A stretch of DNA of 64,000 nt, from assembly GCA_021432635.1 (NCBI GenBank), contig MU270021.1:876594-940593 (forward strand). Direction: 5' to 3'. Positions 60,876 to 63,800 of the stretch are shown here, one piece after another. Each line of letters begins with the position of its first letter. Position 1 is the first letter of the stretch. The notes under the pieces are model-generated. The model had not been told where the DNA came from. It saw only the letters and a program-made list of their open reading frames with translations, and searched no databases. This stretch comes from Thozetella sp. PMI_491 (taxonomy: Eukaryota; Ascomycota; Sordariomycetes; Chaetosphaeriales; Chaetosphaeriaceae). The translations under genes and the position numbers were made by a program.

Positions 60876-63800
60876 ATGTTCAAGAGGTTAGTCCTGGCAT
60901 CTATTGATACTTTTCCGGCCGCGCCGCGCCGAATTGGGGCCAATTGAGCTGACAAAAATTCTCTGCTGTAGCGGCATTTCCCTCACCCGGGCAGCTCGCC
61001 CTGCCTTCACGGCGGCTACTCGCCGTGCTGCTCGCCCAGCGGCCGTCAACCTCAGGGCCCCTGCCTTCAGCAGATTCGCCAGCTCTGCCGGCGTTGGTGA
61101 TGGCAAGATCTACCAGGTCATTGGTGCCGTCGTCGATGGTCAGTAGCCGCCGGAACCTCGGGAGCCTCAATTGAGGACGCCGGAAGCCATGGAGAGATTT
61201 TTTTCTGACCCATTCCGAAACAGTCAAGTTCGACACCGCCAAGCTCCCCCCCATCTTGAACGCTCTCCAGACCGAGAACAATGGCCAGAAGCTCGTGCTT
61301 GAGGTCGCGGTACGTTAAACTCAGTTCCGTCGCGATCCGACCAATCCCGGCCGATCGCGGCCAAAAGGAACAACAATTTAGACCTGAACTGACGCCTTCG
61401 CAGCAACATCTTGGTGAGAACGTCGTGCGGACAATTGCTATGGACGGTAAGATACTCTCTACTGTTGATCTTGAAGTATTGCGCGTAGATGGCTAATTTT
61501 TTTTCTTCCCTTGCAGGTACCGAGGGTCTCGTCCGTGGTGCCAAGGCCGTTGACACTGGTGCCCCCATCACCATCCCCGTTGGCCCCGCGACTCTTGGTC
61601 GTATCCTTAACGTCACCGGTGATCCGATTGACGAGCGCGGCCCCGTCAAGACTGACAAGTTCCTTCCCATTCACGCCGACCCCCCGGAGTTCATTGAGCA
61701 GTCCACCACTGCCGAGATTCTCGTCACTGGCATCAAGGTCGTCGACCTGCTCGCTCCCTACGCCCGTGGTGGAAAGATTGGTCTCTTCGGTGGTGCCGGT
61801 GTCGGCAAGACCGTCTTCATCCAGGAGCTGATCAACAACATCGCCAAGGCCCACGGTGGTTACTCCGTCTTCACTGGTGTCGGCGAGCGTACTCGTGAGG
61901 GTAACGATCTGTACCACGAAATGCAGGAGACTTCCGTCATCCAGCTTGATGGCGAGTCCAAGGTCGCCTTGGTCTTCGGCCAGATGAACGAGCCCCCGGG
62001 AGCCCGTGCCCGTGTCGCTCTTACCGGGTGAGTATCAGTTGCTCTTTCCTTCGGTCGTTCGTTCTTTCTATCTCCAACCAAAGTCGTTTCTTCAACTTCC
62101 CTATTTTTATTCTCATGTATTTGGCTTCGTCAAATTCCCTCATGTTTCTCGCATGACATGGAGTCGACAAGGCCGCCATCATGGAGGCCGCAGACGGGCT
62201 ACTGGACTTCAACACGCAAATCCTCTTACTCCTGGAGATCACCTCGGCACTTGTACATATCCAATCGCCAGGATGGTATGTCACCGGAGAGATTAAGGCT
62301 GTGCTAGAGCATCGGGATGAGTTCGACACGCTCGCACTCTGTTTACCCCTTGAACTGTCCTCGACAACCCGGACCATCATCTCATCACCAGAGCCGCCAA
62401 GCTTCTCGACATTGCTCTCATTGCCAGAAGCACTTCCTGATACATGGGGCATCTATGCAGTCTGTTTGGAGAAGACAGGCTCAAGTCCCATGCTCTACCT
62501 GGGATCAGGCACAGACACGCATCTGGGCGTCATCGCAAGAATTGCCTCGTACAAACAAGCTCGAAGTCTTCCTCGGTTCGTCAAGAAAGCCTTCGAAGAT
62601 GGCTATCATGTCGCACACATAGGAATGCTATGCTGGACGCCCATGCCTCCCCCTGGTGTTCAGCCTCGTGCAAGAGCTTTTTTCCTTGCTCTGGAGGCCA
62701 CATTCACCGTTCTCATGCACGCCTGCATTCCGATGATCACGGATGATGCTTACCAGCACCTGTTGCTCTGGCCTCGCGACACGGTCGACTGGAAACCCCT
62801 ATGCTCTCATCTCTCTCTTCGTGAGGCCGTCCGTGGCGACCTGACACTGTCACCTGAGGAACTCGAGTTAGCAGCTGCACATCGTACTGCTAGGTTCAAG
62901 TCCAGACTTCTTGCTGGGAGCCAACGCTTTCGAGCTCGAAAACGGGCTGCAGACATCGTGGCTTATAAGCAGAAAGTCGCCGCCGATAAGAAGTCCTGGG
63001 CTGCGAGAAATCAGAGTCGCGTCCTCGACATCGCAGCAAAGGTCAGATTCACAGCCAAGGACAGCAAAAGATTCTACTGCCCGTCCTGCGATGTCGCCTT
63101 GGCCTCTGAACTTGCTTTGAGCAAGCACTTCGACACCAAATCCCATAGGGAAATCCTTGCTGGCACCAAACCTCAAGTCCATGTCGCCACCACATCCAAC
63201 ATCAACCAACAGGCTCGTCGAGCATTGCGTGTCGCCTCTCGGGAATTTTCCTGTCCGCCATGCGACAAGGTCTTCCCAAATGATTGGTCTCTTCAACGCC
63301 ATCTTAGCACAAACCGCCACCGGAAACAATGTTCATGACCTTTTCTTTCTTTTTTCCAATTTGACATTTCCAATTTCCTCGGACAGAACACTAACGAATC
63401 GTTTAACACTTTAGTCTTACCCTGGCTGAATATTTTCGCGATGCCGAGGGCCAGGATGTGCTTCTCTTCATCGACAACATTTTCCGTTTCACGCAGGCCG
63501 GTTCCGAGGTGTCGGCGCTTCTGGGTCGTATCCCCTCTGCGGTCGGTTACCAGCCCACCCTCGCCATTGACATGGGTGGTATGCAGGAGCGTATTACCAC
63601 CACCAAGAAGGGTTCCATCACTTCCGTGCAGGCCGTCTACGTCCCTGCTGACGATTTGACCGATCCCGCCCCCGCCACCACCTTCGCCCACTTGGACGCC
63701 ACCACTGTGTTGTCCCGTGGTATCTCTGAGTTGGGTATCTACCCTGCCGTCGACCCTCTTGACTCCAAGTCTCGTATGCTCGACCCCCGTATTGTCGGCC

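Follow-up and report, generated by a model that had tools for sequence, protein, structure and literature searches.

Can a homing-endonuclease-type gene reside in an ordinary spliceosomal intron of a fungal housekeeping gene? This question was raised by the fifth intron of atp2, which encodes mitochondrial ATP synthase beta, in a 64,000-nucleotide stretch of DNA from Thozetella sp. PMI_491 (the window, to which all positions refer). In the initial annotation, made from the sequence alone, this intron was described as holding a frame for a protein with a GIY-YIG-like core and zinc fingers. Recent work on giant viruses has described selfish elements of this kind within ordinary introns (PMC12768974), so that an example from a cellular gene would be notable.

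The fifth intron of atp2

Judging by its genes and short introns, the window appears to be nuclear DNA of a fungus. The atp2 gene was read on the + strand from position 60876 and, once five introns are spliced out, its frame stays open for 468 codons, up to the window end. Its exons were placed by continuous spliced translation at 60876 to 60886, 60972 to 61138, 61224 to 61309, 61404 to 61446, and 61517 to 62027 (exons 1 to 5), followed by exon 6 (63415 to 64000), which starts with LTLAEYFRD and is open at the window end. A Pfam ATP-synt_ab match over 61489 to 62028 (E = 5e-21) was detected for exon 5. The first four introns (60887-60971, 61139-61223, 61310-61403, and 61447-61516) were 85, 85, 94, and 70 nt in length, respectively, compared with 1,387 nt for intron 5 (62028-63414). 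Thus, the long fifth intron of the initial annotation stood, while the length given there for the other atp2 introns (57-94 nt) was revised to 70-94 nt for the four that are visible. The spliceosomal signals reported for the long intron were also present, including (i) a GTGAGT donor and a TTTAG acceptor; and (ii) a single CTAAC within the last 76 nt (63391-63395), located 19 nt from the intron end, with the atp2 frame staying open when the intron is spliced. A group I or group II self-splicing intron at this position was considered and ruled out by an Rfam search of both strands of 60000-64000 at E ≤ 1, in which the sole match was an unrelated leader.

The composition of the intron was found to differ between the nested frame (GC 0.54) and the sequences to its 5′ and 3′ sides, which were of 153 nt (GC 0.44) and 76 nt (GC 0.34) and were pyrimidine-rich (0.66), as if the frame sat within a once-short intron. 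The insertion site lies in what we take to be a conserved part of the enzyme. The sequence TCTTACC occurred on both sides of intron 5, at the end of exon 5 (62019-62025) and the start of exon 6 (63415-63421); this pair may reflect protein constraint and not a target-site duplication, because each copy encodes Leu-Thr.

An intact nested frame with zinc fingers

The nested frame (62181 to 63338) is carried on the sense strand of atp2 and encodes 385 codons plus a stop; its sequence context is GCCATCATGG. Another four ATGs are positioned upstream of the frame within the intron, a point that speaks against the homing-endonuclease proposal made below. When measured from stop to stop, the frame spans 393 codons compared with a maximum of 340 codons in any of the six frames of 2,000 dinucleotide shuffles of the intron. 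The intact 385-codon frame of the initial annotation was in this way confirmed, and the presence of a protein gene nested within the spliceosomal intron of atp2 is well supported. The zinc fingers attributed to its product were also recovered, as two C2H2 fingers of the pattern C-x2-C-x12-H-x5-H at aa 300-322 (63078-63146) and aa 358-380 (63252-63320), and were significant in Pfam (zf-C2H2_jaz, E = 1e-11 on the whole protein, in two stretches). N-terminal to both fingers were a basic linker (aa 201-295; 62781-63065) with a computed pI of 10.7 and the GIY-YIG-like domain (approximately aa 86-185; 62436-62735) examined below.

Codon usage of the nested frame was compared with that of nine host genes of the window, including atp2, by use of a composition-matched null, with the frame at 40612-43503 left out as it had no Pfam match. 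All nine host genes displayed the host codon preference (z = 5.9 to 19.1), compared with z = 1.1 for the nested frame. When the same stretch was read in its alternative frames, z-values of −0.4 to −0.2 were obtained for the shifted frames and 1.1, −1.5, and −3.0 for the antisense frames. Because frames antisense to known genes (n = 39) reached z-values of up to 6.5, coding and noncoding sequence cannot be told apart by this measure. The nested frame is not shaped like the genes of its host, and this lack of codon bias is also what a host gene of low expression might display. A laxer codon test that had favored the nested frame was superseded, as its null was lenient and its gene model included a mis-framed atp2; in that test, whose gene set included the frame at 40612-43503, the nested frame scored 0.001 compared with −0.059 to −0.186 in the five other frames, and its synonymous score exceeded those of all 500 uniform random recodings under the lenient null.

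Motif and profile analysis of the GIY-YIG-like domain

Members of the GIY-YIG superfamily can be recognized by GIY and YIG motifs followed by an Arg and later a Glu, and these elements were found in the nested protein as GIY at aa 90, YLG at aa 106, R120, and E172. A late Asn is also usual in GIY-YIG domains and was not evident in the nested protein. The pattern G[IVF]Y.{8,16}[YF][IVL]G was detected in 19 of 200,000 shuffles of the nested protein, and in 6 of 200,000 once the R and E were added, while a much looser form was detected in 37,591 of 200,000; these counts are somewhat too favorable, because the patterns were written from recall after the sequence had been seen. Across the 593 frames of at least 60 codons in the window, the first of these patterns was present in the nested frame only.

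Significant profile similarity, another hallmark of the superfamily, was found neither by Pfam nor by a purpose-built phage HMM nor by hhalign. The GIY-YIG families of Pfam gave no match at E ≤ 10 to the whole nested protein or to two excerpts of it, and no match named GIY-YIG was retrieved from NCBIfam or PHROGs. The phage GIY-YIG HMM was built from 24 domain hits (25 minus one that was spurious), representing 22 distinct domains, as two were counted twice owing to the overlap of loci L027 and L035. Its seeds were drawn from seven of eight T4 loci (all but I-TevII, L009) and from all loci of a second set of 15, with loci L010-L023 left out. This HMM scored the excerpt of aa 81-220 at −2.4 bits, compared with 1.7 for the best of 5,000 shuffles and 2.4 for the best other frame of the window, and reported nothing for the whole protein. 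By hhalign, 84 of 300 shuffles scored as high against GIY-YIG as the nested protein itself. T4 I-TevII was used as a yardstick and gave E = 1.1 with PF01541, while for SegE_GIY-YIG, a sister family, its E-value was 2.2e-4; thus, Pfam can be weak on true GIY-YIG members, as for I-TevII with PF01541. The nested protein matched neither of these two families.

Predicted structure of the GIY-YIG-like domain

AlphaFold2 was applied to aa 82-200 as an isolated domain without an alignment. The resulting model was of low confidence (pLDDT 56.8, pTM 0.50) and was predicted to contain strands at 89-97 and 104-111, helices at 112-122 and 132-139, a strand at 143-152, and a helix at 163-182. The elements of a GIY-YIG domain follow the order strand, strand, helix, helix, strand, helix. 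Modeling of the full-length protein failed (pLDDT 35.8), with the second strand and first helix missing. When the model of aa 82-200 was compared with the PDB by Foldseek, 363 matches were obtained at E ≤ 10, of which none reached E ≤ 0.001, and unrelated folds occupied ranks 1 to 5. Among the best 50 of these 363 matches, four entries were GIY-YIG nucleases (query-normalized TM 0.2-0.3), none of them significant and none ranked first: 1zg2 (UPF0213) ranked 6, while entries of Slx1 occupied ranks 25 and 26 (6seh) and 48 (4xlg). We regard 1zg2 as GIY-YIG because its E. coli homologue YhbQ matches both 1zg2 and PF01541 (E = 1.9e-12). Slx1 is presumably a GIY-YIG nuclease, and the matched chains of 6seh are assumed, from recall or chain length, to be Slx1 and not Slx4. 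The finding of four such entries in the best 50 looks enriched, because only 11 distinct GIY-YIG sequences (not a full count) were met among 177,635; this must be set against the unrelated folds at ranks 1 to 5 and the TM of 0.2-0.3 for the four. Foldseek against viral proteins placed a Marseillevirus ‘GIY-YIG catalytic domain protein’ at rank 16 and, at rank 23, a group I intron endonuclease, among the best 50 of 1,347 matches at E ≤ 10; neither was significant. Across the matches listed for the PDB and for the viral proteins, the query-normalized TM ranged from 0.14 to 0.38.

Considered together, the GIY-YIG-like core proposed in the initial annotation was supported in part, by the motif and the low-confidence predicted fold, and was not recovered by Pfam, the purpose-built HMM, or hhalign. 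That annotation had also stated that a structure prediction devoid of a GIY-YIG fold would refute it; this was weakly tested, in that the predicted order of elements agreed with the fold and no fold match was significant. On balance, the domain is probably a divergent GIY-YIG-like nuclease. Separately, residues 135-181 of T4 I-TevI (L002:1036-1770), which presumably lie near the zinc finger of this enzyme, were observed to match PDB chain 7pp2_B (annotated as AVR-Pii) at E = 0.002, and this match may be due to chance.

Relatives, repeats, and neighboring features

No second copy of the nested gene was detected in the window (tblastn, best other match E = 0.51), and relatives of its protein were not found in phages (tblastn, E ≤ 10) or in the viral contigs or the genome contigs (scans of six short peptide patterns each, with 6 and 73 pattern matches unconfirmed). 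This absence of relatives says little, because the collections searched contain no fungi as such. The exon 5/donor pattern of atp2 had 0 matches in the viral contigs. Transposon ends around the insert were sought within 61900-63600 and rejected: 10 direct repeat families and 11 inverted pairs were identified, all of ≤ 28 nt, and in no case did the two intron flanks hold one arm each. The arms of one inverted pair (19 nt, 74%) were located in the two exons that border intron 5.

Other features of the window were also recorded. An inverted repeat (58718-58861 and 60367-60501; 146 columns, 74.7% identical), perhaps a small element, lies between the frame of a TPT-family transporter and atp2. On the − strand are a gene with a VEFS-box (polycomb SUZ12-like) at 47153-49483, which may be of use in placing the fungus, polycomb being patchy in fungi, and a frame for an MHYT-domain protein at 30969-33500, with MHYT described by Pfam as a bacterial signaling repeat.

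Proposed mechanism and alternative explanations

Our leading proposal, to which we give a little under an even chance, is that the insert is a selfish gene of the homing-endonuclease type, residing in a spliceosomal intron of a housekeeping gene. According to this proposal, atp2 would be unharmed by the insertion because the spliceosome would remove intron 5, as suggested by the intact splice signals and intact spliced frame. The nested gene would be expressed, probably via its own transcript, to generate a product in which a likely divergent GIY-YIG-like nuclease is joined to the basic linker and two C2H2 zinc fingers. The fingers and linker may bind DNA near the junction of exons 5 and 6. 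By analogy to homing introns such as the mirusvirus shintrons, alleles that are without the long intron would be cut by the nuclease, with repair from the filled allele copying the intron together with its gene. Homing, target choice, and spread of the nested gene are thus suggested by this analogy. The more specific view, that the gene encodes an active GIY-YIG/zinc-finger homing endonuclease and is spreading in a fungal population from the harmless location that a spliceosomal intron in a nuclear housekeeping gene offers, is put forward tentatively.

The nested frame may instead be an ordinary host gene for a zinc-finger nucleic-acid-binding protein, brought into the atp2 intron by copying or insertion, with the GIY...YIG motif being a chance occurrence or dead remnant. 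Consistent with this explanation, the zinc fingers alone are significant by profile while the GIY-YIG profiles fail, and shuffles frequently yield the motif in its very loose form (37,591 of 200,000); however, the stricter pattern that requires R and E is rare (6 of 200,000), the predicted elements occur in GIY-YIG order, the fold matches, although not significant, include GIY-YIG nucleases, and host codon bias is absent from the frame, such that we find an ordinary host gene rather unlikely. Codon usage unlike that of the host genes is also what might be seen for a transposon-borne GIY-YIG/zinc-finger gene, or for a once-mobile gene since domesticated, neither of them now homing into atp2, and endonuclease-containing Penelope elements are known (PMC3846280). 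This origin is improbable, as no repeat pair placed a copy in each intron flank, no second copy was detected in the window, and the nested protein had no transposase or reverse transcriptase domain by Pfam. Least credible is a chance open frame within a long intron: though the frame is free of host codon bias and its z of 1.1 is equaled by an antisense frame of the same stretch, the two intact C2H2 fingers and a run longer than that in any of 2,000 shuffles make this very improbable.

Comparison with known systems

The nested protein resembles phage endonucleases of the I-TevI type in its GIY...YIG...R...E order and in the placement of its likely nuclease at the N-terminus and its DNA-binding part at the C-terminus. 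It differs from the phage GIY-YIG intron endonucleases in that profile similarity to them was detected neither by HMM nor by hhalign. I-TevI resides in a self-splicing group I intron, whereas no self-splicing ribozyme of group I or II that could serve as a host intron was detected at atp2 by Rfam (E ≤ 1).

A second point of comparison is provided by the WHO elements of yeast, described in 2020 as zinc-finger homing endonucleases that parasitize the housekeeping gene FBA1 (PMC7282813). As with WHO/HO, the atp2 insert pairs a putative endonuclease-plus-zinc-finger protein with a fungal housekeeping gene; in contrast, the WHO proteins are described as intein/LAGLIDADG-like with CxxC fingers and are encoded downstream of FBA1 (PMC7282813), while the atp2 insert is intronic. 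Neither a LAGLIDADG motif nor a Pfam match to LAGLIDADG or intein families was identified in the nested protein. The same report notes that some Kazachstania carry the only known budding-yeast FBA1 intron, located exactly at the inferred WHO cut site (PMC7282813).

The closest arrangement is that of the mirusvirus spliceosomal homing introns (‘shintrons’) reported in November 2025, comprising 334 nested endonucleases of which 132 are GIY-YIG (PMC12768974). The authors of that report describe the association of endonucleases with spliceosomal introns as previously unobserved (PMC12768974). The statement in the initial annotation that no accepted family lives in spliceosomal introns is consequently outdated, as the shintrons present the same arrangement in viral genes (PMC12768974). 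Two of the traits by which a shintron can be recognized were found at atp2, namely (i) an intact protein-coding gene inside the intron (62181-63338); and (ii) a spliceosomal donor and acceptor with no group I/II structure, as judged from sequence signals; as to the nuclease, the motif and the predicted order of elements spoke for it and the profiles against it. Like the putative endonuclease gene at atp2, the endonuclease genes of the shintrons are described as lying in introns with ordinary splice sites and no group I/II structure, within conserved genes (PMC12768974). The shintrons sit in viral genes, mostly of virion formation (PMC12768974), whereas the atp2 insert sits in a cellular metabolic gene, carries C2H2 fingers, and has a weaker nuclease call.

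Among the matches listed for the open literature, based on titles and the starts of abstracts and with most subscription papers and bioRxiv outside this scope, no cellular or fungal shintron-like case was found. The concept is already known from the mirusvirus shintrons and from WHO/FBA1, to which a case on a fungal chromosome would add a variant not described before. If our proposal is true, homing endonucleases can exploit the host spliceosome in chromosomal genes, beyond self-splicing elements or viruses, and a concrete route to spliceosomal intron movement and gain in cells would be at hand; it would then be warranted to survey the housekeeping genes of fungi for long introns that carry genes. 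Fungi would also be tied to the mirusvirus shintrons, with the atp2 insert joining the shintron and WHO ideas in one object.
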